NCBI RefSeq assembly: GCF_014904815.1
Contig: NZ_JACZFR010000001.1
Coordinates: 1-64,000 of the forward strand
Length of the DNA: 64,000 nt
Reading direction: 5' to 3'
Origin: Microbulbifer taiwanensis
GTDB taxonomy: Bacteria; Pseudomonadota; Gammaproteobacteria; Pseudomonadales; Cellvibrionaceae
Shown: positions 32,605 to 49,853 of the stretch, one piece after another
Layout of the letters: each line of letters begins with the position of its first letter
Position numbering within the stretch: position 1 is the stretch's first letter
The notes under the pieces: model-generated
Database searches by the model: none
What the model was told of the DNA's origin: nothing
What the model saw: only the letters and a program-made list of their open reading frames with translations
Program-made: the position numbers and the translations under genes

Positions 32605-33615
32605 TCAGCCGGATTTCTTTATATGCCTGGCGCGCCACTCGGCCGGGGAGGCGCCGAACTGGGCCTTGAACCAGCGCGTGAAGGAACTCGGCACCGAGTA
32701 GCCCAATAGTTCGGCCACCCGGCCCAGGCTGTGCCCGGGGTTTTCGATATGGCGCATGACCAGTTCGCGCCGCACGCTGTTTACCAGGTCGGAAAATGCC
32801 GAATCGGATTCATCGAGGCGCCGCTGCAATGTGCGCACGTTCATGCCCAGGGTCATCGCCACCTGGTCGATGGTCGCGCGCCCGGTCGGCAGCAACAGTA
32901 CGATCATCTTGCGCGCGTCCAGCTCGACGGAGTGCCTGGCCTTTCCCGGCAGGGATTCCACATAGCGCGCGGCAATCTGGGCCAGCGAGGGATCGGCGGT
33001 GGGATTGGGGTAATCGAGACTGTCTGCCGGGCAGGTGAAGCCGTTGAACTCGGCGGAAAAATTCAACTTGCAGCGGAAGACGCGACGGTGCACCTGCAGG
33101 TCCTCCGGTGCTTCGTGGGTGAAGTTGACGCCGTACGGCTGCCAGTGGGCGCCGAGCAGGGCGCTGCACAGGCGGAAGAGGGCGCCGACGGCGAGCTCCG
33201 TCGCCTGCCGCGAAGCCATCGGCGGATCGGTCACCACCTCGTCGCGCACTATCACCGTTTTTCCCGCCTCCTCGATGCTGATCGCCAGGCCCTCATTGAG
33301 CAGGTGCTCGTACTGCACCACCGCCTGTAACGCATTGCGCAGGGTGGGCTGGTGGGTCAGCAACAGGCTCACCGCGCCGAAGTCCGCCAGCTGGCGCGAC
33401 TCCGCCATGCGCAGTCCGAAGGCAATGCAGTTGCTCTCGCGGGCCGATTCCTCCAGCAGTGCGATGGCCGCCGCCGCCGGGATGCGCTGCTCGGGATCGG
33501 CCAGTTGCGAGCGGCTGAAGCCGAATTTGCTGAGCAGCGGCTGGGGATTGAGCCCCAGGTGTTCCGCCACCTCGAAATAGTTGGTCAGTGCCGCGGCCCG
33601 AAAGAGTGTCGCCAT
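32605..33615 (-). CDS. AraC family transcriptional regulator of the adjacent catabolic cluster
   Basis: 336 residues. The N-terminal about 210 residues are the Arabinose_bd-type sensor found in OruR/ArgR-like AraC regulators (AAALTNYFEVAEHLGLNP, FGLRMAESRQLADFG). The C-terminal about 100 residues hold two helix-turn-helix motifs (VAMTLGMNVRTLQRRLDE and VAELLGYSVPSSFTRWFKAQFG). The gene is divergent from the quinone oxidoreductase gene across 310 bases that contain two copies of the TGTCG direct repeat, with a third copy before the TonB receptor gene. It is therefore the obvious activator of the cluster. Confidence 0.9.
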   Translation of the reverse strand: MATLFRAAALTNYFEVAEHLGLNPQPLLSKFGFSRSQLADPEQRIPAAAAIALLEESARESNCIAFGLRMAESRQLADFGAVSLLLTHQPTLRNALQAVVQYEHLLNEGLAISIEEAGKTVIVRDEVVTDPPMASRQATELAVGALFRLCSALLGAHWQPYGVNFTHEAPEDLQVHRRVFRCKLNFSAEFNGFTCPADSLDYPNPTADPSLAQIAARYVESLPGKARHSVELDARKMIVLLLPTGRATIDQVAMTLGMNVRTLQRRLDESDSAFSDLVNSVRRELVMRHIENPGHSLGRVAELLGYSVPSSFTRWFKAQFGASPAEWRARHIKKSG

Positions 33616-33693
33616 AGCTTGAACCCCGCCATTAGTGTCTGTCGCCGGCCGCCCTCAGCGCGCGGGGCAGCCCGGTAAATCCAACAGCGCCAT

Positions 33694-33719
33694 TGTCGTG
33701 AAAAGGAAGCTGCATGGCG
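33694..33719 (+). promoter_or_regulatory. operator-like repeat, copy nearest araC
   Basis: TGTCGTGAAAAGGAAG then, 21 bases from the first TGTCG, TGGCG, one mismatch from TGTCG. Same register as the two stronger copies. Its place close to araC suggests autoregulation. Confidence 0.55.
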
Positions 33720-33794
33720 TGCATTGCGGTTCCTTACACTCGGTGCCTGGCTATTTTAGCGCGTAATTTCCCGGTTTATTGCCGCATTTACCAA

Positions 33795-33858
33795 TGTCGT
33801 GAAAAGAAAAGTGCCTGTCGCGCAGAGAAAAGAGATATCCGCTCCGGTTGCCTAAAGT
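33795..33858 (+). promoter_or_regulatory. operator-like direct repeat and promoter box of the catabolic cluster
   Basis: TGTCGTGAA at 33795 and TGTCGCGCAG at 33816 are direct repeats exactly 21 bases (two helical turns) apart, the spacing AraC-family dimers use. CCTAAAGT starts at 33851; the included TAAAGT is a fair -10 element. The same two repeats and the same box recur before the TonB receptor gene with identical spacing. Confidence 0.65.
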
Positions 33859-33925
33859 AGGGACGAACAGGGTGTGCCGCTGGGCTAGCCCGGCAAAAAA
33901 CCGAGTTTGCAGACAGGTGATCAGA

Positions 33926-34906
33926 ATGGCAAAAGCCGTGCGCATTTACGAAAAGGGTGGCCCCGAGATGCTTCGCTATGAGGACGTCGAAGTGCCCGAG
34001 CCGGGCCCCGGCCAGGTACACATCCGCCACGTGGCGGTCGGCCTGAATTACGCCGATACCTATTTCCGCAACGGCACCTATCCGTTGCCGATGCCCAACG
34101 GTATGGGGGTGGAGGCCTCGGGTGTGGTGCTGTCCGTCGGCGAGGGTGTCACCAATGTGAAGCCCGGCGATCGCGTCACCTACACCGGTTTTATCAACAC
34201 ACTGGGCGCCTACAGCACCGAGCGCCTTGTGCCGGCCGCGCCGCTGATAAAGCTGCCGGAAACCATTGCCTTTGAAACCGCCGCGGCCATGACCATGCGC
34301 GGCCTGACTTCGGCCTACCTGATGCGCCGCATCTACCCGTTCCAGCCCGGCGACACCATTCTGCTACACGCTGCCGCGGGCGGCGTCGGCCTGATTATCT
34401 CCCAATGGGCGAAACTGCTTGGCCTGAATGTGATCGGCACAGTGTCCACCGACGCCAAGGCGGAGATAGCGCGCGCGCACGGTTGCGATTACACGATCAA
34501 CTACAGCTGTGAGGATGTTCCCACACGTGTGCGCGAAATCACCGGTGGCGGAGGGGTTGCGGTGGTGTTCGACAGTGTCGGCCGCGACACCTTTATGGGA
34601 TCCCTGGACTCGCTAAAACGCCGCGGCCTGATGGTCTGCGTCGGCACCGCATCCGGCACTATTCCGCCGTTTGATCCGCAACTGCTGGCGATGAAGGGCT
34701 CGCTGTATATGACGCGCCCGGCGCTGGCGGACTATATCGCCGATCCGGCAGAGAAGGCCGATCTGGCCGGGGAGATTTTCGACCACATCGCCGCCGGGCG
34801 CATCCGCATCGAGATCAACCAGCACTATGCATTGCAGGATGCGGTGCAGGCGCACCGGGATCTCGAAGCGCGCAAGACCACCGGCTCCTCGATTTTCATC
34901 ATCTGA
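33926..34906 (+). CDS. quinone oxidoreductase-like medium-chain dehydrogenase/reductase
   Basis: ATG 33926 is set by AGGTGA 5 bases upstream. The 326-residue product is a zinc-free MDR protein of the Qor/zeta-crystallin group: MAKAVRIYEKGGPEMLRYED, LNYADTYFRNGTYPLP, MTMRGLTSAYLMRRIY, the NADPH-binding LLHAAAGGVGLIISQWAKLLG and a C-terminal HYALQDAVQAHRDLEARKTTG. It reduces quinones or enoyl-type double bonds with NADPH. As first gene of the AraC-controlled cluster it may act on an unsaturated or quinoid intermediate; the substrate is unknown. Confidence 0.88.
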   Translation: MAKAVRIYEKGGPEMLRYEDVEVPEPGPGQVHIRHVAVGLNYADTYFRNGTYPLPMPNGMGVEASGVVLSVGEGVTNVKPGDRVTYTGFINTLGAYSTERLVPAAPLIKLPETIAFETAAAMTMRGLTSAYLMRRIYPFQPGDTILLHAAAGGVGLIISQWAKLLGLNVIGTVSTDAKAEIARAHGCDYTINYSCEDVPTRVREITGGGGVAVVFDSVGRDTFMGSLDSLKRRGLMVCVGTASGTIPPFDPQLLAMKGSLYMTRPALADYIADPAEKADLAGEIFDHIAAGRIRIEINQHYALQDAVQAHRDLEARKTTGSSIFII

Positions 34907-34918
34907 GGAGGTGTGACC

Positions 34919-35767
34919 ATGCGCGTAGAGCCATTGACCTGCAGTATCGGCGCCGAGCTGGGTGGTGTGAGTCTCGCCGATGCGGTGCGCGACGACGGAC
35001 TCTTTGCCGACATCCGTGCGCTGCTACTGCAACACAAGGTGTTGTTCCTGCGCGACCAGGAGTTCAGTCGCGCCGAGCATGTGGCCTTCGCGCGCGGCTT
35101 CGGTGAACTGGAGGACCATCCGGTAGCCGGCAGTGATCCCGAGCACCCGGGCCTGGTGCAGATTTACAAGTCGCCGGAGCAGCTGGCGGATCGCTACGAA
35201 AACGCCTGGCACACCGATGCCACCTGGCGCGAGGCGCCGCCGATGGGCTGTGTATTGCGCTGCGTCGAGTGCCCCCCGGTCGGCGGCGACACCATGTGGG
35301 CGAATATGGCGCTGGCCTATGAAAAGCTGCCGGCGCACATCAAGGAACAGATCGCCGGCCTGCGCGCCCGTCACAGCATCGAGGCGAGTTTCGGCGCGGC
35401 CATGCCAGTGGAAAAACGCCTCGCGCTCAAGGCCCAGTACCCGGATGCGGAACACCCGGTGGTGCGCATCCACCCGGAAACCGGCGAGAAGATTCTGTTC
35501 GTCAACGCCTTCACCACCCACTTCACCAATTACCACACGCCCGAGCGGGTGCGTTTCGGCCAGGATGCCAACCCCGGCGCCAGCCAGCTGCTCAACTACC
35601 TGATCAGCCAGGCGTACATCCCCGAGTACCAGGTGCGCTGGCGCTGGCAGAAAAACAGTGTGGCCATCTGGGACAACCGCAGCACCCAGCACTATGCGGT
35701 GATGGACTACCCGCCCTGCCATCGCAAGATGGAGCGGGCCGGGATCATCGGCGACCAACCCTACTGA
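34919..35767 (+). CDS. TauD/TfdA family Fe(II)/2-oxoglutarate dioxygenase
   Basis: ATG 34919 is 7 bases after GAGGAGG; the GTG at 34913 is too close. The 282-residue enzyme has the iron-binding facial triad His98-x-Asp100 (WHTD) and His258 (STQHYAVMDY), with the 2-oxoglutarate-binding Arg about 11 residues later (CHRKMERAG). The HTDATWREAPPMG phrase is typical of the family, which hydroxylates carbons next to sulfonate, sulfate ester or aryl ether groups so that sulfite, aldehyde or phenol is released. The YeiH exporter four genes downstream makes an organosulfur substrate plausible. Confidence 0.9.
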   Translation: MRVEPLTCSIGAELGGVSLADAVRDDGLFADIRALLLQHKVLFLRDQEFSRAEHVAFARGFGELEDHPVAGSDPEHPGLVQIYKSPEQLADRYENAWHTDATWREAPPMGCVLRCVECPPVGGDTMWANMALAYEKLPAHIKEQIAGLRARHSIEASFGAAMPVEKRLALKAQYPDAEHPVVRIHPETGEKILFVNAFTTHFTNYHTPERVRFGQDANPGASQLLNYLISQAYIPEYQVRWRWQKNSVAIWDNRSTQHYAVMDYPPCHRKMERAGIIGDQPY

Positions 35768-35808
35768 CCGGCAACACTGTCCGCTTCCAATAATTTGAGG
35801 AAACAGCC

Positions 35809-36858
35809 ATGAACTTTTTAGACGGCGCACTCTTCCCTGAAAACCAGGACAAGCTCGTTATCACCGCGGCCCCCTACGGCCCCGAATGGTTCCCGTCCGA
35901 CTACCCGGAAGACATCCCGGTGACCATGGAAGAGCAGATCCAGAAGGCCGTGGACTGCTACGAAGCCGGCGCCGCGGTACTGCACCTGCACGTGCGCGAA
36001 CTGGACGGCAAGGGCTCCAAGCGCCTGGAAAAGTTCAACGAACTGATCGCCGGTGTGCGCGAAGCGGTACCGGAGATGGTGATCCAGGTCGGCGGTTCCA
36101 TCTCCTTCGCGCCCCCGGAAGACGGCGCGGCCGCCAAGTGGCTGCACGACGACACCCGCCACATGCTCGCCGAGTTGGACCCCAAGCCCGATCAGGTCAC
36201 CGTAACGGTCAACACCACCCAGATGAACGTCATCGAGCAGATGGATGTGCGCGACTACGCCGGCACTTCCATGGGCGACGAAACTTACGATGCCTACCGC
36301 GAAATGATCGTGCCATCAGGCCCCGGCTTCATCGAAGAGCACGTCAAGCGCCTGAGCGACGCCGGTATCCAGAGTGCTTTCCAGTTCTACAACATCAACA
36401 GCTACGAGACGGTCGAGCGCCTGATCCGTCGCGGTGTCTACAAGGGCCCGCTGGTGTGCAACTGGGTCGCCATCGGCGGCGGTATGGATCAGCCGCACAT
36501 CTACAGCATGGCCAACTTCCTGCGCGCCATCCCCGACGGCACCATGCTGACCGTGGAGAGCACCATGCTCAACGTGCTGCCGATCAACATGATGGGTATG
36601 GCGATGGGCCTGCACGTGCGCTGCGGTATCGAGGACAACCTCTGGGCCCAGGACCGCTCGCGCAAGGTGACCACCGTTGAGCAGATCCAGCAGCTGGTGC
36701 GCATTGCCAAAGAGTTCGGTCGCCCGGTTGCCAACGGCCCGGAAGCGCGCGAGATCCTCAAGATCGGCATTTTCTACGACACCGTCGAAGAGACTCTGGC
36801 GGCCAACGGCTTCGCGCCGAACCCGAAGGGCGGCATGCAGGGCTTCCTGCAAAAGTAA
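35809..36858 (+). CDS. BKACE (beta-keto acid cleavage, DUF849) family enzyme
   Basis: 349 residues, longer than the usual 270-310 for this family. BKACE enzymes condense a beta-keto acid with acetyl-CoA and release acetoacetate plus a new CoA thioester, using zinc. The signature LHLHVRELDGKGS (His59, His61) provides two zinc ligands, and VITAAPYG near residue 17 and the late VESTMLNVLP segment belong to the active-site barrel. The extended middle (about 105-200) is unusual. It is strongly translated (AGGAAACAGCC before ATG) and sits between the dioxygenase and a transporter, so it should act on the dioxygenase product or a later keto acid. Confidence 0.88.
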   Translation: MNFLDGALFPENQDKLVITAAPYGPEWFPSDYPEDIPVTMEEQIQKAVDCYEAGAAVLHLHVRELDGKGSKRLEKFNELIAGVREAVPEMVIQVGGSISFAPPEDGAAAKWLHDDTRHMLAELDPKPDQVTVTVNTTQMNVIEQMDVRDYAGTSMGDETYDAYREMIVPSGPGFIEEHVKRLSDAGIQSAFQFYNINSYETVERLIRRGVYKGPLVCNWVAIGGGMDQPHIYSMANFLRAIPDGTMLTVESTMLNVLPINMMGMAMGLHVRCGIEDNLWAQDRSRKVTTVEQIQQLVRIAKEFGRPVANGPEAREILKIGIFYDTVEETLAANGFAPNPKGGMQGFLQK

Positions 36859-36873
36859 TGCACCGGTGGTGCC

Positions 36874-36900
36874 GGGCGAGCAGCTGATGCAGGCTCGCCC
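36874..36900 (+). terminator. intra-operon hairpin between BKACE and MFS genes
   Basis: GGGCGAGC and GCTCGCCC are perfect 8-base complements around an 11-base loop. There is no T tract, so it may reduce transcription into the transporter genes or stabilise the upstream message. Confidence 0.5.
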
Positions 36901-36921
36901 AGTCTTCGACGAGGAAGCTCC

Positions 36922-38232
36922 ATGGCCCAATTCCATCACAGCGAAACAGCAGCCAGCGATGTTCCGCGTCGCTATGCCTGGATTGTGTTCGCGCTTACCT
37001 TTGGCCTGCTGATTTCCGACTATATGTCGCGGCAGGTGCTCAATGCCGTGTTTCCAATGCTCAAGGAAGAGTGGGCACTGTCCGACGCCCAGCTGGGCCT
37101 GCTGGCCGGCATAGTCGCGCTGATGGTCGGCCTGCTGACCTTTCCGCTGTCGCTGCTCGCGGACCGCTGGGGGCGTGTGCGCAGCCTGACGCTGATGGCG
37201 ATCCTGTGGAGCCTCGCAACACTTATGTGCGCGCTGTCGGAGAGCTTCGAGCAGATGCTGACCGCGCGCTTCTTCGTCGGCATCGGCGAGGCCGCCTACG
37301 GCAGTGTCGGCATCGCGGTGGTGCTGTCGGTATTTCCGGCACGCCTGCGCGCCACCCTGACCGGTGCCTTTATGGCCGGCGGCATGTTCGGCTCGGTACT
37401 CGGCATGGGTCTCGGCGGCGTCATCGCCACGGCACTGAGCTGGCGCTGGGCCTTCGCCGCCATGGCACTGTTCGGCCTGGCGTTGGCCTTTATCTACCCA
37501 CTGATAGTGCGGGAGGCGAAAATTGCCCCGCGCAAGGCGCGCAGCGATGCCGGGTCGACGCCACCGCTGCGTCGGCGGCTGGCGGGGCTGGTTTCCAGCC
37601 GCTCGGTCGTCTGCGCCTACGTCGGTAGCGGCCTGCAGCTGTTTATCGGCGGCGCCATGATCGCCTGGATACCCAGTTATCTGAACCGCTACTACGATAT
37701 GTCGCCGGACAAGGCGGGTGGCCTCGCCGCCGTGTTTGTCCTGATCAGCGGGGCCGGCATGGTGTTGTGCGGCATATTGAGCGACCGCCTCAGCCAGAAT
37801 TTACCGCAACGCAAATTTGTGCTCGCCTGCGCCTACAGCCTGGCGACCTTCCTGTTGCTGTCACTGGCCTTCCAGCTTCCCGCCGGACTGCCGCAGCTGC
37901 TGCTGATCGGCGCCGGCATGTTTGTCGCCGCGGGCACCTCCGGGCCGGCCGGCGCCATGGTGGCCAACCTCACCCACGCCAGCATCCACGGCACCGCCTT
38001 CGCTACGCTGACGCTGGTCAACAACCTGCTGGGCCTCGCCCCCGGCCCCCTGGTCACCGGTCGTCTCGCCGATGTGCTCGGCCTCAACGGCGCCTTTCAG
38101 CTGATCCCACTGGTGTGTCTGCTGGCCGCACTGGTGTTTTACATGGGCAAGCGCCGCTATCTGCAGGATCTGCAGCGACTGCACGGCTCCGCAGGCGACA
38201 GCGGCAACGCACCAAATGAGGCTCGAGCCTGA
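36922..38232 (+). CDS. MFS transporter
   Basis: 436 residues with about twelve helices. The cytoplasmic loop motif LLADRWGRVRSLTLMAILWS between helices 2 and 3 is the major-facilitator signature, and GIGEAAYGSVGIAVVLSVFP matches the spinster/hexuronate-type branch. It most likely imports the substrate of the cluster across the inner membrane after uptake by the TonB receptor, or exports a product. GAGGAAG lies before the ATG, and the stop overlaps the start of the DsbA-like gene (TGATG). Confidence 0.85.
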   Translation: MAQFHHSETAASDVPRRYAWIVFALTFGLLISDYMSRQVLNAVFPMLKEEWALSDAQLGLLAGIVALMVGLLTFPLSLLADRWGRVRSLTLMAILWSLATLMCALSESFEQMLTARFFVGIGEAAYGSVGIAVVLSVFPARLRATLTGAFMAGGMFGSVLGMGLGGVIATALSWRWAFAAMALFGLALAFIYPLIVREAKIAPRKARSDAGSTPPLRRRLAGLVSSRSVVCAYVGSGLQLFIGGAMIAWIPSYLNRYYDMSPDKAGGLAAVFVLISGAGMVLCGILSDRLSQNLPQRKFVLACAYSLATFLLLSLAFQLPAGLPQLLLIGAGMFVAAGTSGPAGAMVANLTHASIHGTAFATLTLVNNLLGLAPGPLVTGRLADVLGLNGAFQLIPLVCLLAALVFYMGKRRYLQDLQRLHGSAGDSGNAPNEARA

Positions 38233-38903
38233 TGCCTACAATGCGTATCGATATTTACTTTGACCTTATCTGTCCCTGGTGCCTGATCGGCAAGCGCAAC
38301 CTCGAGTCCGCACTGGAGATCCTGGCCAGACAGCATGCGCAAATCCGGCCGGAACTGCACTGGCAGCCGGTGCAGTTGTTGGCAGACATTCCAGGGCAGG
38401 GGCTACCCTTCAACGAATTCTACCAGCGCCGCCTCGGCGGCCCCGAGGCCGTGCGCCTGCGCCAGGCACAGGTGCGGCGAGCAGCCGAGGGTGCCGCTGT
38501 CGAAATCGCCTTCGAGCGTATATCGGTGATGCCCAATACCGCGCGCGCGCATCGCCTGCTCGCGATTGCCGGGCAACAGAATGGTGCGGCGCAGCACGCC
38601 GACCTGCTCGAGCACCTGTTCTGCGCTTATTTCCAGCAGGGAGAGGACATCGGTGATACAGACACGTTGCGGCGCATCGCCCGCGGCGTCGGCCTGGACG
38701 CAAAGGGCATCGAGCGGGCATTGAATTCCGCCGCACCGCTCTCGCGGCGAGAGTCGCAGCGGGCGGCACAGGGTGTGCCCTATTTCGTTTTCGACAACCG
38801 CGGCACCGTCGCCGGTGCGGTGGATGCCGATACGCTGGTCGCGGTAATGCGCAGGACCCTGGCCCTACCCGTCGATGCCGCTTGTGAGGAACTGTCGGCA
38901 TGA
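38232..38903 (+). CDS. DsbA-family (FrnE/HCCA isomerase-like) thioredoxin-fold protein
   Basis: 223 residues without a signal peptide, so cytoplasmic. The active-site CPWC lies at residues 14-17 within YFDLICPWCLIGKRNLE, typical of FrnE-type DsbA-like oxidoreductases, and the cis-Pro region is GVPYFVFD. Family members act as disulfide oxidoreductases or as glutathione-dependent isomerases of aromatic degradation (2-hydroxychromene-2-carboxylate isomerase). The CxxC points to redox rather than isomerase chemistry. It overlaps both neighbours by 1-4 bases, so it is part of the MFS-YeiH unit. Confidence 0.85.
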   Translation: MPTMRIDIYFDLICPWCLIGKRNLESALEILARQHAQIRPELHWQPVQLLADIPGQGLPFNEFYQRRLGGPEAVRLRQAQVRRAAEGAAVEIAFERISVMPNTARAHRLLAIAGQQNGAAQHADLLEHLFCAYFQQGEDIGDTDTLRRIARGVGLDAKGIERALNSAAPLSRRESQRAAQGVPYFVFDNRGTVAGAVDADTLVAVMRRTLALPVDAACEELSA

Positions 38904-39919
38904 CCAGTGTCGCTGTGACCGGCATCGCCGCCATCCGCGAGCGCGGTCGCGCACTGTTTCCCGGAATCGTCGCCAGTGTGATAGTGGCGACGGCGGCAAG
39001 CTTCCTTTCCGAGCATTACGATGCACCGGTCATGCTGTTCGCGCTGCTGCTCGGCATGACAATGAATTTTCTCGCCGCCGACGGGCCCTGCAGGGCCGGT
39101 ATCGAATTCACCGCGCGCCAGGTGCTGCGTATCGGCGTGGCACTGCTCGGCCTGCGCTTCACCTTCGCGCAGATCGCCGCACTGGGTTGGGAGCCGGTGT
39201 TGATCGTAGTGGTGTCGGTGGTGGCCACCATCCTGGTCTCGGTGGCCGCGGCCCGGGCGCTGGGATTCCAGCCGCTGTTTGGCCTGCTTACCGGCGGCGC
39301 CACGGCCATTTGCGGCGCGTCCGCGGCGCTGGCACTGTCCGCGGCCCTGCCGTCGCACCCGGGCAAGGAGCGCGCAACGCTGTTTACCGTGATCGGGGTT
39401 TCGGCGCTCTCCACCATCGCGATGATCGCCTACCCGATGGTCGTGCAGCTGCTCGACCTCAGGCCCGTGGATGCCGGTATCTTCCTCGGCGGCACCATTC
39501 ACGATGTGGCCCAGGTGGTTGGGGCCGGCTACAGCCTGTCGCAGGAAACCGGGGACACGGCCACGGTCGTCAAGCTGATGCGCATCGCCATGCTGCTGCC
39601 GGTCATCGTCTGTGCGGCCATGATCACCCGTGCCCGGGGCGCGGCCGAGGGCGGCGAGCGCCCGCCGCTGTTGCCCTGGTTCGCCGTCGCCTTCGTCGCG
39701 CTCGCCGCCGTCAACAGCACCGGTTGGGTGGCTCCGGGCCTGCAGCAATTGGGCAGCGATCTGTCGAGCTGGTGCCTGGTTGCGGCAATCAGCGCGATCG
39801 GCATGAAGACGCAGCTGAAGGAAGTGACTTCTGTCGGCTTCAGGCCCATTGCCCTGATGATTGGCGAGACAGTTTTTCTCGCCGGCCTGGTGCTGTTGCT
39901 ACTGCGTTTCGCCGGCTGA
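38900..39919 (+). CDS. YeiH family putative sulfate/sulfite exporter (UPF0324)
   Basis: 339 residues with about ten helices. Diagnostic segments are FALLLGMTMNFLAAD, GVALLGLRFTFAQI, LTGGATAICGASAALALSA, FLGGTIHDVAQVVGAGYSLS and IGMKTQLKEVTSVGFRP. YeiH proteins are putative exporters, repeatedly found beside genes that release sulfite or sulfate from organosulfur compounds. The ATGA overlap with the DsbA-like gene shows one transcript. With the TauD-type dioxygenase upstream this supports, but does not prove, desulfonation by the cluster. Confidence 0.88.
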   Translation: MTSVAVTGIAAIRERGRALFPGIVASVIVATAASFLSEHYDAPVMLFALLLGMTMNFLAADGPCRAGIEFTARQVLRIGVALLGLRFTFAQIAALGWEPVLIVVVSVVATILVSVAAARALGFQPLFGLLTGGATAICGASAALALSAALPSHPGKERATLFTVIGVSALSTIAMIAYPMVVQLLDLRPVDAGIFLGGTIHDVAQVVGAGYSLSQETGDTATVVKLMRIAMLLPVIVCAAMITRARGAAEGGERPPLLPWFAVAFVALAAVNSTGWVAPGLQQLGSDLSSWCLVAAISAIGMKTQLKEVTSVGFRPIALMIGETVFLAGLVLLLLRFAG

Positions 39920-40298
39920 TCGACAGGCGTCTTTCAGGCGAAATCCGCAGCCGGTTTCCGCCAGGCAAATCCGCTGCTCTGTTCTCGCTCCGCGATAGCT
40001 CCCTCGCGGTTTTCCACTTCCCTGTACCGGCTATCTGGCCGGTGCGTGCAAGCTCCTGTGTATGAACCGCATTGCGCTGGCAGTTCCCAAATACTGCCTG
40101 TCGTGAATTGAGAAGCGGCTGTCGCTGCAGGATAAGTGCGCGCCGGACCCCTCACCTAAAGTGACATCTCCGCTATTGCGAAAGCCTTGAAAGGGCGCAG
40201 CGTTTGGCGGAGCAAACAGGATAAGCCGGGCAATAAAGATCCGGCGTCTGCACCACAGTGTGTCTGTCCAGTTCGACAGCCAGCAGAGGACAATAATA
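39920..40298. other. 379-base spacer and control region before the TonB receptor gene
   Basis: No gene is supported; the frames here lack ribosome sites and family features. The operator-like direct repeat and CCTAAAGT box at 40099-40162 lie in the middle, and AGAGGA at 40285-40290 is the ribosome site of the receptor gene. A terminator for the preceding operon was not evident. Confidence 0.55.
40099..40162 (+). promoter_or_regulatory. operator-like direct repeat and promoter box of the TonB receptor gene
   Basis: TGTCGTGAA at 40099 and TGTCGCTGCAG at 40120 are 21 bases apart, and CCTAAAGT begins at 40155. The distance from the first repeat to the box equals that in the region before the quinone oxidoreductase gene. 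Between them about two thirds of the 26-base repeat block is also conserved. Confidence 0.65.
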
Positions 40299-42641
40299 AT
40301 GAAGTGCATCAACATCGAATCCGAACTGAGTCTCCGCCCTCTCGCCCGGGCCATCCTTCACTCAATCGGTCTTATTACCATCACCAGCCCGTCAGTCGTC
40401 TTTGCGCAGTCCGACGGGCCCGCGCTCGAGGAAGTAACGGTTACCGCGCAGAAGCGTACCGAAAGCATGCAGGATGTTCCGGTGGCTGTCAGTGCCATCA
40501 CCGGCGATGACCTGGCCAATACCGGCTTCCGCGATGTCAGCGACATTGCTGCACAGGTGCCATCGCTGATCGTCACTACAAACATATCGCCGATCAACGC
40601 CAGCTTCCGTACGCGCCGTATCGGCAACGAGGGCAATATCCCCACCTTCGAACCGGACACCGCACTGATCATCGACGGCGCCTTCCGCTCGCGCTCCGGC
40701 CTGGGTCTCGGCGACCTGGTCGGCGTCAACTCGGTAGAAGTACTGAAAGGCCCGCAGAGTACCCTGTATGGAAAAAATGCCGGTGCCGGTGTGGTCAGCA
40801 TCACCACCGCGGCGCCGCACGATCAGTTCGAGGCGATGGCGGAAGTGAACCTGGGCACCGAGGGCTACCGCCAATTGCGCGGGGACGTGAACTCGCCGCT
40901 GACAGAAAGCCTCAGTGGCCGCATCAGCTTTACCGACACCCAGCGCGATCCATTGATCGACAACCTGGTGGCGGGTGCCGGTGACAGTCTCGATGGCCGG
41001 GCGCTGCGCGGCCAGCTGCTGTACGATTTCAGCGATGATTTCTCGGCGCGCCTGATCGTCGGCGCCGCGCAGCGGAATATGCGCCCAATGATGGCCGATG
41101 TGCACTTCAGCCAGATGCAGCTCGCCATCATCGGCCAGGCGGGTCACACGGTGACCAACAACGACCCCTCCGACCGCATTATCGAGAGCGACGATCACTC
41201 CGACTTCGAGCAGGATTCGGTGGACGGTGTACTGACGCTCGAATACCGGGGCGAGGGTTACACCCTGACCTCGATCAGCGGCTTCGAAGACTACAGTGCG
41301 GACCTCCGCTTCGGCGGCGCCGAGGAGATGCCGCTGCACCTGGTCGAGTTCAACGATCTGCAGGCTGGTCGCTCCCTGTCCCAGGAACTGCGCCTGGCCT
41401 CGGATTCCGATGGCGACTGGGACTGGATGCTCGGGGCCTTTTACTACACCAACGAACTCACCCGCGGCGACGAGCAGCGAGCCGAGTTTGTGCTGGAAGA
41501 GGATATCGGGGCCTACGGCGGTGTCATCGGCAATGCGTTGCTGGGTGTCCCCGCGCCGGTATTCGGTATCGAGGGCGATCGCGGCGACTTTCTCGCCGAG
41601 CAGGACAGCAGCGCCCTGGGTCTCTTCTCGCAGGTCGGCACCCAGCTGAGCGAAGACCTCAAGCTCGATGTGGGCCTGCGCTATTCCCGCGAGGAAAAAT
41701 CCGGCTCCATAGTACAGGGCAACCAGATTGCGGCTCCGGCCTGTGGCTTTAACCTGGTGTGCAGCCTGACCCCGGAAGGGCTCGACTTCGACGAGTCCGA
41801 TACCTGGTCTGCGGTGACCGGCAACGTCAACCTGAGTTACTTCCTGTCCGACGACACCATGGTCTACGCGCTTTACTCGCGTGGCTTCAAGGCCGGCGGT
41901 TACAGCCTGCAGTATGGCCAGTCATCGCTGGAATCCCGTCCCTTCGACCAGGAAGACATCACCAACCTGGAAGCGGGCTGGAAAACCGAATTCTGGAGTC
42001 GCCGCGCCCGTGTCAATGCGGCGCTCTTCCACACCGAGTACAAAGACTTCCAGAATGCGAGCTTCGTCAGCCTGGGCTTCACGGTCAACAACGCCGAAAA
42101 AGTCGTCGTCGACGGTGTCGAAATCGACTCCGAGTGGTTGCTGAGTGAGAAGCTGACCGCCAACGCCAGCCTGGCCTACATCGAGGCGGTCTACGATCGC
42201 TATAGCGGCGGCCAGTGCTATCACGGCCGGACCCCCGACAACGCGCTGGGGCAGTGTGACCTGAGCGGTGAAGTCCTGCCCTTTGCGCCCAAGCTGACCG
42301 GTAATGTCGCGCTGCAATGGGAGCAACCGCTGTTCAGCGGCGATCTCTATGCGCGCCTCGACTATCGCTATACCGGCGCTGCCAACTACAGCTCCGAGCT
42401 GGACCCGCGCCACCAGCAGGATGCCTACGCGGTGGGCAACTTCCGCCTGGGATGGCGCGATGCCAGTTACGACATTTCCGCCTGGGTGCAGAACCTCGCG
42501 GATGAGAGCTACTACACGCAGAAGCTGCCGGCCAACGTCTCTTCCAATGTCGACAAGATCGTGAGCCCGCAGGAGGGTTCCTACCAGGCTTTCACCGGGA
42601 CGCCCCGCACAGCCGGTGTCACTTTCCGCATGAATTTCTAA
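40299..42641 (+). CDS. TonB-dependent outer-membrane receptor
   Basis: ATG 40299 has AGAGGA 8 bases upstream and opens a 780-residue preprotein with a long signal region ending near VVFA-QSDG. The TonB-box-like EEVTVTAQKR is followed by a plug domain (VAVSAITGDDLANTGFRDVS, VEVLKGPQSTLYGKNAGAGVVSI). The beta-barrel runs to a terminal aromatic residue (TFRMNF). This subgroup, common in sphingomonads and marine gammaproteobacteria, imports diverse organic molecules rather than only siderophores. Its promoter shares the cluster operator, so it probably brings the substrate of the cluster across the outer membrane. Confidence 0.92.
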   Translation: MKCINIESELSLRPLARAILHSIGLITITSPSVVFAQSDGPALEEVTVTAQKRTESMQDVPVAVSAITGDDLANTGFRDVSDIAAQVPSLIVTTNISPINASFRTRRIGNEGNIPTFEPDTALIIDGAFRSRSGLGLGDLVGVNSVEVLKGPQSTLYGKNAGAGVVSITTAAPHDQFEAMAEVNLGTEGYRQLRGDVNSPLTESLSGRISFTDTQRDPLIDNLVAGAGDSLDGRALRGQLLYDFSDDFSARLIVGAAQRNMRPMMADVHFSQMQLAIIGQAGHTVTNNDPSDRIIESDDHSDFEQDSVDGVLTLEYRGEGYTLTSISGFEDYSADLRFGGAEEMPLHLVEFNDLQAGRSLSQELRLASDSDGDWDWMLGAFYYTNELTRGDEQRAEFVLEEDIGAYGGVIGNALLGVPAPVFGIEGDRGDFLAEQDSSALGLFSQVGTQLSEDLKLDVGLRYSREEKSGSIVQGNQIAAPACGFNLVCSLTPEGLDFDESDTWSAVTGNVNLSYFLSDDTMVYALYSRGFKAGGYSLQYGQSSLESRPFDQEDITNLEAGWKTEFWSRRARVNAALFHTEYKDFQNASFVSLGFTVNNAEKVVVDGVEIDSEWLLSEKLTANASLAYIEAVYDRYSGGQCYHGRTPDNALGQCDLSGEVLPFAPKLTGNVALQWEQPLFSGDLYARLDYRYTGAANYSSELDPRHQQDAYAVGNFRLGWRDASYDISAWVQNLADESYYTQKLPANVSSNVDKIVSPQEGSYQAFTGTPRTAGVTFRMNF

Positions 42642-42652
42642 TGCGGAATTTT

Positions 42653-42684
42653 GCGGGCGCCCTGGTGCCCGCGTATTAATTTTT
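42653..42684 (+). terminator. terminator after the TonB receptor gene
   Basis: GCGGGC-GCCCTGGT-GCCCGC is followed by GTATTAATTTTT. Directly behind it lies a second perfect stem, CCTGTGGGCT-CCA-AGCCCACAGG (42685-42707), without T tract. Confidence 0.7.
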
Positions 42685-42736: not shown

Positions 42737-44368
<1,632 letters not shown>

Positions 44369-45019: not shown

Positions 45020-47248
45020 TTACTGGCAGGCGCTGCGAATTCCGTGTGCCTCCTGCACCGCCTCCAGCCAGTAGTAGGTATCGTTGTCGCTGAAGTAGTA
45101 GTAGACGCTGTCGTTCGGCAGCAGCACTACGGTGATGCCGCCGTATCCGGACAGGAAGGGAATCCACTGGGCGCCGTTGCAACCGCTCAGGTTACCGGCC
45201 ACATCGTGCGCCCAGAACCCATTGTTATAGCGGTAGTCCGCCAGCGGCACAGTGCCGATATCGGAAACTGATCTCTGCAGTGCCGCATCCAGCTGCGCCG
45301 CGTTCAGCATCTGCTGCCCATTAATTTTGCCATCGTCGATAGCGACAAAGCTGGCGATCTTGGCGATATCGTCCGGCAGCCACATCAGCCCCCAGCCGGC
45401 GAACGGCTGTTCGACCGCATCGTAGGTGCGGCGCGTGTACTGGCCGGTGGGGCCGACGCCGATCGGTTTCCACAGGTCCTCGACGACAGTATCGGCAAAG
45501 ATATCCGCGGAGCTGCCCTGCTGATTCTGCAGGTAGGCGTTCATCACCGCACCGGCGATATAGGTATCGGAGGTGTGGTAGACCCACTGGCTGCCCGGCG
45601 TCGCCTTGCGCGAATACTGGGTGCAGCTGTAATTGATCTTGCTCGCGTGACTATCCACCAGGAAGAGATTGTCGGTGTGCGTCGCGCCCTCGTCTTCCAT
45701 ATAGGTGCTGCTGCCGTAGTTGCCGGTGGCCATATCCAGCACATTGTTCAGCGTCACATCACTCCAGTTGCCGTTGCTGGCACAGTCGCCCACATGGCTG
45801 GCGACGATGCTGTTGCGCACACCCGGATACTGCTGTTCCAGGCGCATCATGGCCACGCCGGCGAACAGTGACTTGGCGGTGGAGTAGGAAGGTACCACCA
45901 GGGATTCGCAGTAGGGGTAGTCGCCGTTGCGGGTCACACAGTCGCCGCGGTAGTGGGTGCCGTCGATGACGAAGCCGGCGGTGCTGATATGGCTGGCGTC
46001 GGTACTGTTGGGCGCAGCGAAGGCGCTGTAGTCCGTGCCCGGGTAGTCGCTCGCCAGTGCGGACAGCGGCTTCACCGGCAGCCGCGCGGCGATTTCGTCC
46101 TGGTAATCCTGGATCAGCTGGCTCTGGCCGGCAATCGTCTGCGGCGTGTAGGTCGCACTCAGCAGTCCCCACCAGTCCGCCTTGAAATAGAGACAGGTCT
46201 CGCTGCTGATCTGGTAGGCGACTTTGGACACCGAACCATCCTCCTTGAACAGGAAGGACATAATCCCGTTGTGCATACAGTTGGCATTGCGCTGCTGCAG
46301 TGCGAAGGGAATGGTCGCGCGGCTGTAGCCGTTGTCACCGTTCTCCTGCCACACCCGTCCCGGTGTCAGCACATATTCCCAATTCGGATGCGAGCTCGGA
46401 ATGGAGCCGCGGGCTAGTGGGAAGATATGGCTGCCGGTCTGCACAAACTGGAAATCGAATTCCGGCAGGTGCTTGCGGGTATTGTCGCCGGGACCTGTGT
46501 AATTGTAGGTGTCCTCGTGCTCGGCGAAGCTGCCGCCGCTGGCCTCGCCGCTCAGGGTCAGCTTGCCGGCAAAGGCGTGCTGCGGATGCGCTGCGTCAAC
46601 CGGCAGCGCATAGCCGCTCAGATCGATGCGCGCACCGGGATCGCTGCCGCTCATCAGTGTGCCGTAGCTGAGCAGGGTGCGGTTCACATTGCCATTGCCG
46701 CTCAGCTCATCGTAGTAGTCGTCATTGCTACCGCCGCCACTGCTGCCACCGCCGCTGTCCACATCGCCGGTGACGAGAATATTGTCGCCGTAGCAGTAGT
46801 CGTAATACTGGTTCACGCTGGTGCGGTAGCGGATCAGCATCGAAGGCTTGTTGTCTGCATCGATGGCGACGCTGCTGGCCGTGTAGAGCGCGCTGTTGTC
46901 CTGGCCATTGACCAGGGTGATGGCATTGACCCAGGTATTGCCGCCGTCGTTGGACACCTCGGCGATACAGCTGTCGCCGAACTCCAGCGCATAGGCGGAA
47001 ATATCCAGGGAGATATTCACGTTGACATAGCCCTGGGTGGAGAAGGCCAGGCTGGCGCTGCTACCGACGCCCTGAATACCGATCGAATAGTTGCCGTAAT
47101 AGTAATTGGGATAGACGGTGCCGCTGGTGCTCCAGCCGTTCAGGTTGCCGTCCTGGAAATCGTCCGACACCAGAGTGTCTGCCTTCAGTTGCGACGAGGC
47201 GCAGGCACAGAGTGCCGCGGCCACCGCGAGGTGTTTGATTATTTTCAT
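45020..47248 (-). CDS. secreted SxxK serine hydrolase (beta-lactamase/esterase-like), short paralogue
   Basis: 742 residues with a signal peptide (a lipoprotein-like CACASS lies in it, but the spacing also fits ordinary cleavage after LKA). An N-terminal beta-sandwich (about 25-165) carries DDFQDGNLNGWSTSG, and a Gly/Ser linker GGGSSGGGS follows. The catalytic region contains SYSTAKS near residue 453, an SxxK nucleophile as in class C beta-lactamases and esterases, and YHTSDTY as a possible Tyr motif. It pairs with the longer paralogue immediately upstream on the same strand. Probably a secreted esterase or peptidase; substrate unknown. Confidence 0.75.
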   Translation of the reverse strand: MKIIKHLAVAAALCACASSQLKADTLVSDDFQDGNLNGWSTSGTVYPNYYYGNYSIGIQGVGSSASLAFSTQGYVNVNISLDISAYALEFGDSCIAEVSNDGGNTWVNAITLVNGQDNSALYTASSVAIDADNKPSMLIRYRTSVNQYYDYCYGDNILVTGDVDSGGGSSGGGSNDDYYDELSGNGNVNRTLLSYGTLMSGSDPGARIDLSGYALPVDAAHPQHAFAGKLTLSGEASGGSFAEHEDTYNYTGPGDNTRKHLPEFDFQFVQTGSHIFPLARGSIPSSHPNWEYVLTPGRVWQENGDNGYSRATIPFALQQRNANCMHNGIMSFLFKEDGSVSKVAYQISSETCLYFKADWWGLLSATYTPQTIAGQSQLIQDYQDEIAARLPVKPLSALASDYPGTDYSAFAAPNSTDASHISTAGFVIDGTHYRGDCVTRNGDYPYCESLVVPSYSTAKSLFAGVAMMRLEQQYPGVRNSIVASHVGDCASNGNWSDVTLNNVLDMATGNYGSSTYMEDEGATHTDNLFLVDSHASKINYSCTQYSRKATPGSQWVYHTSDTYIAGAVMNAYLQNQQGSSADIFADTVVEDLWKPIGVGPTGQYTRRTYDAVEQPFAGWGLMWLPDDIAKIASFVAIDDGKINGQQMLNAAQLDAALQRSVSDIGTVPLADYRYNNGFWAHDVAGNLSGCNGAQWIPFLSGYGGITVVLLPNDSVYYYFSDNDTYYWLEAVQEAHGIRSACQ

Positions 47249-47298
47249 AGTTCTATGTTCTTTCTGTGAAAAACTGTTGCAAATAAAGCCGTCACTGG

Positions 47299-47330
47299 CT
47301 CGTCATTCCGGCCTGTGCCGGAATGACGAG
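47299..47330. repeat. REP-like element, family A (perfect hairpin)
   Basis: CTCGTCATTCCGGC and GCCGGAATGACGAG pair perfectly over 14 bases around CTGT. It separates the two paralogous hydrolase genes. Confidence 0.85.
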
Positions 47331-47351
47331 AAGGCTGATCTGTAGGGATTT

Positions 47352-49853
47352 TCAGTTACAGAGACTGCGAATCGAGTGGGCCTCCACCGCCGCATCCATC
47401 CACACATACTCGTCGTCATCGGAGAAGTAGTAGTAGACGCTGTCGTTCGGCAGTATCAGCACCGAGATACCGCCGTAGCCGGACATGAACGGCAGCCACA
47501 GGTCACTGCTGCAGCCGGACAGGTTGCCGCTGATCTCATGGGCCCAGAAGCCGTTGTTGTACTTGTAGTCGGCGAGTGGATCAGTGCCGCGGTCGGATGG
47601 GTTCCTCTGCATGGCCGCGTCCAGCTCCGACTGATCGAGTAGTGTCTGGCTGGCACCAGAGAAGAAGCTGCCGATCTTGGCCACGTCGTCGCGCAGCCAC
47701 ATCAGCCCCCAGCCGGTAAACGGCTGCGCGGTGGCGTCGTAGGTGCGGCGGGTGAATTCCGCCGTCAGGCTGACACCCAGCGGTGACAGTACTTCGTCGA
47801 CCAGGATATCGGTGAAAATATCCGTACCGCTGCCCTCGATACCCTGCACATAGGCGTTCATCGCCGTGCCGAGAATATAGGTATCGGAGGTGTGATAGAC
47901 CCACTGGGTGCCCGGCGTCGCCTTGCGTGGATATTCGGTGCAGCTGTAACCGATCTTGGACGCGTGGTCTTCCGGCAGGAAGAGGTCGTTGGTGTGGCTG
48001 GCACCCTCGTCGCTCATATAGCCGGCCAGATTGTAATTGCCGGTGGCCATATCCAGCGCATTTTCGAAGGTCACGTCGTCCCAGTTTCCACTGCTTGCAC
48101 AGTCCGGCACATAGTTGCCGACAATCTGGTTGAAGCTGCCGGAGTATTTCTGCTCCAGGCGCATCAGGGTGCTGCCGGCAAATACCGACTTGGCGCTGGA
48201 GTAGGAGGGCACTGCCAGGGATTCGCAGTAGGGGTAATCGCCCCGGCGCGACGCACAGCCACCTACATAGTGAGTGCCGTCGATCACAAAGCCCACCAGG
48301 GAGATATGGGCCGGGTCCTTACCGCCGGGCGCGGTGAACTTGCCCGCGTCCGTACCCGGATAATCCGTGGCCAGGTCGGACAGCGGCTTCACCGGCATGC
48401 GCCCGTTCACTTCCGCCTGGTAGCCGGCAATCAGGTCGGCGGCATTGCTGACACTGTGCGGTGTATAGCTTGCGGAAAGCTGGCCCCACATATCCACCTT
48501 GAAATAGAGGCAGGTCTCGCCGGCAATTTGGTAGGCAACGTCGGACACCGAGCCGTCGTCCTTGAACAGGAAGGTCAGTACGCCGTTGTGCATACAGTTG
48601 GCGTTTTTCTGCTGCAGCGCAAACGGCAGGGCCGCGCGGCTGTAGCCGCCGTCACCGTTCTCGTTCCATACGCGCCCGGGTGTCAGCACATATTCCCACT
48701 CCGGGTGCGCGCTGGGAATAGAGCCACGCTGCACCGGGAATAGATGGCTGCCGGTCTGTATGAATTCGAAATCGAACTCGGGCAGGTGCTTGCGCGTCGT
48801 GTCCTGGGAACCCGTATAGCGGAAAGTATCCACATGTTCATCGAAGGCACCGCCGCCGGCCTCGCCAAACAGTTCCAGGCTGCCCTCGAAGTTGTTCGTC
48901 GGCATGGCCGCGTTGGCCGGCAGCGCGTAGTGGCTGTAGTCCACCAGCGAGCTCGGGTCACTGCCGTTGATCAGCGTATTGAACGTCAGCTGGCCGCGGC
49001 TGACATTGCCACTGCCGGTGAGCGGATCGAAATCCTCGACGCTGCCGCCGCCCTCGGTTGAGCTGCCGGAGAGACTGATAACAAAGCTGCCCTCGTCCGG
49101 ATCGTTGGAGCTGACGGTGATAGAGCCGTTGAAGCTGCCCTCGGAGGCGGGTGCAAACTCGACGCCGATCTGGCAGCTGCCGGCGGGTGCTACAGTGGTG
49201 CAGTTGTTGGAAGCGATGCTGAAGGGCGCCGCCGGGCTGCTGACATTGGAAATCACCAGGTCGGCGCTGCCGGCATTGGAGATAGCCGCGTTCAGGGTAT
49301 TGCTGCCGCCGGGGGCAATATTGCCGAAATTGAGAGCGGAGGGACCGTCGATATCCGGATCCGTCGGCGCGCCGCCGCTGCCGGTCACCGCCACCGACTG
49401 GCCGTAGCAGTAGTCGCCGGTGGTGGCGCCGGTACCGCGAAAGCGCACTTGCACCTGTGGGTTGTTGTCGATACCGGCGGGCGAACTGCTGGCGCTGTAG
49501 TGGGTGCCGCTGTCCTGGCCGTTGGCGACAGTCAGCGCGGTGATCCAGTTGTTGCCGCCGTCGGTGGAAATCTCCGCGTAGCAGTATTCATTGTTCTCCA
49601 GCGACGTCGCGGACATGACAAGATCCACCGACACAGAGGAAAAGCCGGCGGTGGAAACCGCGCGGGTCGCCGTGGCCGTGGCGCGCAGGCGGATGGATTC
49701 ATTGTTGTAGGCGTCCACATTGCCGGAAGTGGACCAGCCATCGATATCGCCATCGGAAAAATCGTCGGAAAAAACCGTGGCCGCATTTGCGGCCAGCGGC
49801 AAAACGAGGGCGGGCGCCAGCAGCGCCCAGCGCAGTTTGGGGAAGGGTTTCAT
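47352..49853 (-). CDS. secreted SxxK serine hydrolase, long paralogue with choice-of-anchor-type domain
   Basis: 833 residues. A signal peptide ending ANAA is followed by the same N-terminal beta-sandwich as its neighbour (DDFSDGDIDGWSTSG). Next comes an additional domain (about 170-265, LNFGNIAPGGSNTLNAAISN, GVEFAPASEGSFNGSITVSS) of the choice-of-anchor D/ASH type that the shorter paralogue lacks. The catalytic region is closely related to the paralogue: SYSSAKS near residue 549, YHTSDTY and a conserved ending with SGYGGISVLILPNDSVYYYFS. The pair reflects tandem duplication with gain or loss of one module. Confidence 0.75.
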   Translation of the reverse strand: MKPFPKLRWALLAPALVLPLAANAATVFSDDFSDGDIDGWSTSGNVDAYNNESIRLRATATATRAVSTAGFSSVSVDLVMSATSLENNEYCYAEISTDGGNNWITALTVANGQDSGTHYSASSSPAGIDNNPQVQVRFRGTGATTGDYCYGQSVAVTGSGGAPTDPDIDGPSALNFGNIAPGGSNTLNAAISNAGSADLVISNVSSPAAPFSIASNNCTTVAPAGSCQIGVEFAPASEGSFNGSITVSSNDPDEGSFVISLSGSSTEGGGSVEDFDPLTGSGNVSRGQLTFNTLINGSDPSSLVDYSHYALPANAAMPTNNFEGSLELFGEAGGGAFDEHVDTFRYTGSQDTTRKHLPEFDFEFIQTGSHLFPVQRGSIPSAHPEWEYVLTPGRVWNENGDGGYSRAALPFALQQKNANCMHNGVLTFLFKDDGSVSDVAYQIAGETCLYFKVDMWGQLSASYTPHSVSNAADLIAGYQAEVNGRMPVKPLSDLATDYPGTDAGKFTAPGGKDPAHISLVGFVIDGTHYVGGCASRRGDYPYCESLAVPSYSSAKSVFAGSTLMRLEQKYSGSFNQIVGNYVPDCASSGNWDDVTFENALDMATGNYNLAGYMSDEGASHTNDLFLPEDHASKIGYSCTEYPRKATPGTQWVYHTSDTYILGTAMNAYVQGIEGSGTDIFTDILVDEVLSPLGVSLTAEFTRRTYDATAQPFTGWGLMWLRDDVAKIGSFFSGASQTLLDQSELDAAMQRNPSDRGTDPLADYKYNNGFWAHEISGNLSGCSSDLWLPFMSGYGGISVLILPNDSVYYYFSDDDEYVWMDAAVEAHSIRSLCN

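Follow-up and report, generated by a model that had tools for sequence, protein, structure and literature searches.

The stretch of DNA analysed here, 64,000 nucleotides of Microbulbifer taiwanensis (contig NZ_JACZFR010000001.1, positions 1 to 64,000; hereafter the window) from a genome of 4.82 Mb, hosts a cluster in which the gene of an AraC-family regulator, a run of catabolic genes and an orphan TonB-dependent receptor gene stand together. The question raised by this locus is whether the receptor and the catabolic genes answer to one switch and, if so, to which protein. The initial annotation, made from the sequence alone, had proposed that the same direct-repeat operator lies in front of both, and direct reading showed its bases and distances to be right to the base. 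TGTCGTGAA occurs at both 33795 and 40099, TGTCGC follows 21 bases after its start (33816 and 40120), and CCTAAAGT is found at 33851 and 40155, in each case 55 bases past the first GTCGTG. The operator-promoter of the catabolic operon spans 33795..33858 on the plus strand (distal half-site 33795-33810, proximal half-site 33816-33831, -10-like TAAAGT 33853-33858) and that of the receptor gene spans 40099..40162 on the same strand (distal half-site 40099-40114, proximal half-site 40120-40135, -10-like TAAAGT 40157-40162). The neighbouring AraC-type regulator, encoded on the minus strand at 32605..33615, very probably docks at this shared switch. We conclude with high confidence that this protein uses both sites as class II activator operators, through which the operon and the receptor would be co-induced. 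Binding by this particular protein, activation rather than repression, and co-induction are what we infer from the DNA.

Both sites follow one composite plan, which consists of a direct repeat of the half-site TGTC[G/A]YN5GNNAA at a 21-bp period, 16 mostly free bases past the second 21-bp unit and a -10-like TAnAGT, the latter beginning in the window sites 58 bases after the first base of the operator. The proximal half-site ends at or overlaps the place of the -35 box, and a consensus -35 is absent. We compared 23 sites in an alignment (A3) that leaves out the serine hydrolase site of genome G399, a weak site in G230 and the third sites of our own genome and of G001, all described below. When a usable -35 was looked for in these 23 sites at spacers of 16-18, at most three of the six positions matched TTGACA. 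The -10 hexamers had 3-5 of six consensus matches, and a -10-like TAnnnT stood at offset 58 in all 23 sites (offset 59 in the G399 hydrolase site). Because there is no -35 box and the proximal half-site takes its place, RNA polymerase would be expected to need an activator, and because the layout is that of XylS at Pm, we infer that a dimer of the cluster's AraC protein acts here as the activator. This presumed operator binder combines a PF12625 Arabinose_bd domain with HTH_18, and its C-terminal AraC double helix-turn-helix domain was found by Pfam scan (PF12833 8.3e-15, PF00165 3.6e-9).

In the proposed mechanism, a dimer of the AraC protein would occupy the two 21-bp direct half-sites, with the proximal half-site filling the place of the absent -35 and the -10-like TAnAGT at its set distance, so that RNA polymerase would depend on the activator. 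The inducer-bound protein would then turn on the operon at 33926-39919 and the TonB receptor gene at 40299 jointly, and joint induction would couple the uptake of one substrate to its breakdown. Annotations that had been unlinked would thereby become one testable regulon, with the orphan receptor tied to a specific catabolic operon, and the precisely defined 64-bp operator would offer a route to the substrate by way of the inducing compound. An RNA element was also considered and rejected, because no Rfam family matched at gathering threshold in 33500-40400 and conservation ends at the -10.

The initial annotation had also tied the receptor to the catabolic genes, and the distribution of the parts across the genus agrees. 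The araC orthologue (expectation value, E, <=1e-60), the receptor (E<=1e-100) and strong operators co-occurred in the same six of 48 Microbulbifer genomes, and the one named relative of the regulator that was found belongs to Microbulbifer harenosus (86% identity, NZ_VANI01000010.1). Gene order was alike in the six clusters, except that the last two genes, those of the hydrolase and the synthetase, trade places; tblastn did not find DsbA in the G021 cluster, and the synthetase of the G065 cluster is cut by a contig end. In each cluster the plain composite pattern found exactly two sites per 14-20 kb region. All 12 of these sites stand before the quinone reductase gene (6/6 clusters) or the receptor gene (6/6), on the correct strand and with equal spacing, a 21-bp repeat and TAnAGT at 58. 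In the 12-site alignment 23 of the 64 columns were invariant, all of them within the half-sites and the -10. Identity between clades (8 pairs, fixed offsets) was 0.94 and 0.68 in the two half-sites and 0.90 in the -10 for the reductase sites, and 0.67, 0.73 and 0.83, respectively, for the receptor sites, whereas the flanks had values of 0.21-0.28 and the spacer 0.29-0.42. The AraC-type operator that had been proposed is thus recognizable in its 21-bp direct half-sites, in the placing of the proximal one at -35 and in conserved islands between flanks at background level.

We then asked how well sites from other genomes predict those in the window. A model trained on 10 sites from five other genus genomes (R2) was run on all 48 genus genomes, with stricter filters under which weak matches may be lost. 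In our own genome R2 found the two sites, at E 1.3e-9 and 2.2e-8, and none further at E<=1. Its matches at E<1e-3 were confined to the six araC-bearing genomes, and the best match in the other 42 had an E of 0.068. A position matrix built from 21 sites, none of them from our own genome, scored the two window sites at 57.0 and 51.1. With this matrix, moving the half-sites 1 or 2 bases closer together or further apart cost both sites at least 21 bits, and shifting the -10 distance alone cost 12-22 bits.

The operator also follows the regulator gene out of the genus. In an order-wide search of 390 genomes, with at most five candidates scored in each, the araC orthologue was present at E<=1e-60 in seven, five of them outside Microbulbifer. 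In four of these five, the four belonging to one other family, an operator precedes a serine hydrolase gene divergent from araC (4/4), with matrix scores of 40.0, 38.3 and 33.2, and of 20.2 in G399, whose spacer has one extra base; the next best score per stretch was at most -0.3. Because araC is flanked on its opposite side by the MFS, DsbA and YeiH-type genes, a second operator further off was predicted before the quinone reductase gene. It was present in all four genomes, scoring 46.9, 55.2, 46.9 and 55.4, with the next best at most 2.6. R2, trained on genus sites only, recovered all eight second-family sites in the 12 stretches searched, both the reductase sites (E 2.3e-12, 1.8e-10, 3.9e-10 and 4.5e-10) and the hydrolase sites (E 3.2e-5, 1.5e-4, 3e-4 and 0.0042). 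Homologues of the receptor and of the acyl-CoA synthetase were not found by tblastn in the second-family stretches. The hydrolase is followed by a DUF1302 gene, as tested in G168, and by genes of the DUF1329 and MMPL types, as tested in G399. In G230, the fifth genome, the site is weak (matrix score 11.9, R2 E 0.0018), and tblastn found araC alone of the cluster genes on its 11.5-kb contig. Single extra half-site-like words, TGTCACGAAATGA and TGTCATGAAATGAAAAA, were seen between araC and the hydrolase operator (L144 from 5100 in G168; L142:13990-14007, minus strand, in G399).

Some findings weigh against control of both promoters by this regulator. Counting the regulator itself, the genome has 11 matches to the AraC protein at E<=0.001, and one of the other 10 might bind a similar site. 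A coding-strand terminator between the upstream operon and the receptor operator was detected in only one of the six genomes scanned (G025), so that read-through into the receptor gene is possible. The held-out sites are moreover orthologous to the training sites, and the E-values reflect common descent besides constraint; our claim of constraint is made because the flanks have diverged while the half-sites and the -10 stayed.

The paralogues give substance to the view that another DNA-binding protein, such as an AraC paralogue encoded elsewhere, uses these operators, the more so as half-sites of the AraC family can resemble each other, as the ARG box illustrates. We consider this unlikely, because matches at E<1e-3 are confined, within the genus, to genomes that carry this araC orthologue (6/48), the operator accompanies the orthologue, beside the gene itself, in the second family, and of the 10 cluster proteins put through the Pfam scan none but the regulator has a DNA-binding domain.

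We judge it no less improbable that the AraC protein acts as a repressor, either at both sites or at one promoter while activating the second. Such a role could be accommodated by the short distance between araC and the reductase gene, which is 156-168 bp in four other genus clusters and places the operator near the araC start, where it may also block araC, but where the proximal half-site takes up the -35 position and no -35 box is present, the layout is that of an activator. Activation of both promoters by the AraC protein of the cluster remains the interpretation that we favour.

Of the motif suggested for a genome scan with the initial annotation, the loose form failed that very test. The loose core TGTCG-N16-TGTCG had 47 matches in the genome versus 53 in a reversed control, which is chance level, so that this part alone carries no meaning. 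A 27-base form allowing up to three mismatches showed a weak excess, with 17 matches in the window versus 10.05 expected and 17 reached by 4 of 100 shuffles. Matches without mismatch to a 37-base pattern and to the composite including CTAAAGT were found at the two sites only; with relaxed matching the 37-base pattern gave 15 matches versus 15 in the control (<=2 mismatches) and the composite gave 9 versus 17 (<=3 mismatches). Chance as the cause of the two sites was rejected by the exact-pattern, held-out-model and shuffle tests. That the likeness of the two sites reflects a recent functionless promoter duplication, or chance, draws on the poor performance of the loose core and can be dismissed almost entirely, since the half-sites and the -10 were kept while the flanks and most of the spacer drifted toward background, both sites are present in all six clusters, and R2 returned its held-out E-values in the genus and in the second family alike.

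A third, weaker repeat had been noted at 33694, and it is present. This operator-like site (33694..33757, plus strand, facing the quinone reductase gene) has TGTCGTGAA as its first half, TGGCG in its second half and TATTTT at offset 58 (33752-33757). With a matrix that excluded our own genome and was restricted to the half-site and -10 columns, it ranked third of 127,874 window positions, behind the two main sites. With the matrix of 21 foreign sites it scored 15.9, a value reached by 1 of 100 shuffles, versus -5.4 for the next position. With the full 64-column model it gave 4 bits and an E of 5, like noise. R3, a model trained on A3 whose E-values are independent only for sites outside A3, placed it third in the genome at E 0.76. 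A better copy was found in G001 (treated as M. harenosus), with TGTCG-N16-TGTCG and TATATT at offset 58; it lies 102 bases upstream of the reductase operator, compared with 101 in our own genome. The G001 counterpart ranked third of 39,874 positions with a matrix from four other genomes, and with R3 it was fourth there (E 1.03), behind an unrelated match at 0.31. Taken together, this suggests that the 33694 site is probably real, and it may serve as a promoter further upstream, as a helper site or in the control of araC. The two strong sites and one weak site in the genome support the small regulon that had been predicted.

In other genomes of the genus the operator has a further apparent target. 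R2 found two extra matches at a separate locus, in G065 (E 3.8e-5) and G027 (E 4.5e-4), and both sites precede an OmpR-type response regulator gene that adjoins a subtilase gene (L115:10518-10581 in G065, L114:13109-13172 in G027). Before the homologous genes of G025 (site at L131:17092-17155) and G021 (site at L132:2697-2760) the geometry is kept, but the second half-site is degenerate (TGACG and TGGCG, respectively). These two sites were first spotted by eye and then scored with a 12-site matrix, where they reached 36.3 and 26.9, the top of their loci; R2 matched the G025 site weakly (E 0.31-0.36) and gave no match at E<=5 for that of G021. All four sites carry TA[A/G]AAT at offset 58. Overall, the operator was present in four of nine upstream stretches of such response regulators, and the pattern found no site upstream of the second copies in G025, G021 and G027 or of those in G002 and G001. 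Our own genome had no match to this response regulator at E<=1e-35. A response-regulator homologue of 45% identity directly adjoins araC in G001 (L093:3472-4155), where no operator was found upstream of it, and the corresponding region of our own genome yielded no such homologue. Near the G027 response regulator, L114:6595-11298 encodes a second TonB receptor, a paralogue with 43-46% identity, together with an acyl-CoA synthetase that has 67% identity to that of the window.

Within the window, araC is divergent from a closely packed plus-strand run at 33926-39919. The first gene of this presumed operon encodes an NADPH:quinone reductase-like protein (33926..34906), identified by its domain and an NCBIfam subfamily match. 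Domain scans assign the following genes to a TauD/TfdA-type dioxygenase (34922..35767), a beta-keto acid cleavage enzyme (BKACE; 35809..36858), an MFS transporter (36922..38232) and a DsbA-like thioredoxin-fold protein (38232..38903), and the run ends with a PF03601 membrane protein (38900..39919) whose nearest model, a YeiH-type putative sulfate exporter, falls below cut-off. On the same strand follow the TonB-dependent receptor (40299..42641) and, 3' of it, an acyl-CoA synthetase (42737..44368), both by domain scan, and a serine hydrolase (PF06821; 44398..44961), the orthologue of which is preceded by the operator in the second family. A terminator-like stem at 42652-42673 lies between the receptor and synthetase genes, which makes their co-transcription uncertain and perhaps only partial. 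Among the matches listed, only the quinone reductase subfamily and a broad subfamily of acyl-CoA ligases reached the NCBIfam cut-off. The operon has a sulfur-related look, its nearest models being taurine dioxygenase and a putative sulfate exporter, neither of which reaches its cut-off; we take this as no more than a lead. Beyond the cluster, 45020-49853 has two large, similar genes side by side on the minus strand (742 and 833 amino acids), with about 63% identity over a compared 219-residue stretch, that look like a tandem duplication.

We tentatively suggest a broader picture, in which a hitherto undescribed regulon for the uptake and breakdown of a substrate extends over two families, its core enzymes keeping their operator and its partner unit being swapped (the receptor in one, hydrolase/DUF1302/DUF1329/MMPL in the other), and in which an OmpR-type regulator was captured in one Microbulbifer lineage, placing a second circuit on the same signal. 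What we had not expected is that the partner unit is exchanged from one family to the other and that, in four genomes, a response regulator has been drawn in.

No report of this motif or regulon was found in the open-access literature searched, which is not proof of its being unpublished. By sequence, the named relatives nearest to the regulator are these: its best NCBIfam models were QhpR, GliR and CypR, all below their curated cut-offs (QhpR 193.9 versus 250), no ArgR-named model was among its NCBIfam matches, and its best relative of solved structure was mycobacterial VirS (8rcx). GliR, too, has a site that overlaps a -35 (PMC8151288), but the GliR motifs are unlike the operator described here. 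The half-site resembles that of the Pseudomonas ArgR ARG box, a tandem TGTCGCN6GNAA with a 5-bp separation and a generally less conserved second copy (PMC10963909). The 21-bp period is shared, but here the conserved G stands one position earlier (N5GNNAA), and the first half admits G or A at its fifth base. The ARG-box half-site TGTCGCN6GNAA is not matched, the invariant G being at unit position 12 rather than 13 (A3 columns 12 and 33).

The closest layout is that of XylS at Pm, where the repeats are set apart by a 6-bp gap, making a 21-bp period. The Pm repeats are direct, TGCAN6GGNTA, and 15 bp each (PMC4225500, PMC5481539), and the second overlaps the -35 by two bases, an overlap described as essential (PMC4225500). 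The two systems share a pair of direct repeats of which the second reaches into the place of the -35 box; they differ in half-site sequence and in the presence here of operators at two distant promoters, and the regulator described here has a PF12625 N-terminal domain. Set beside these systems, the switch is a clean and conserved case of a known kind, with an AraC/XylS class II layout, and the regulon that it would control appears to be new.

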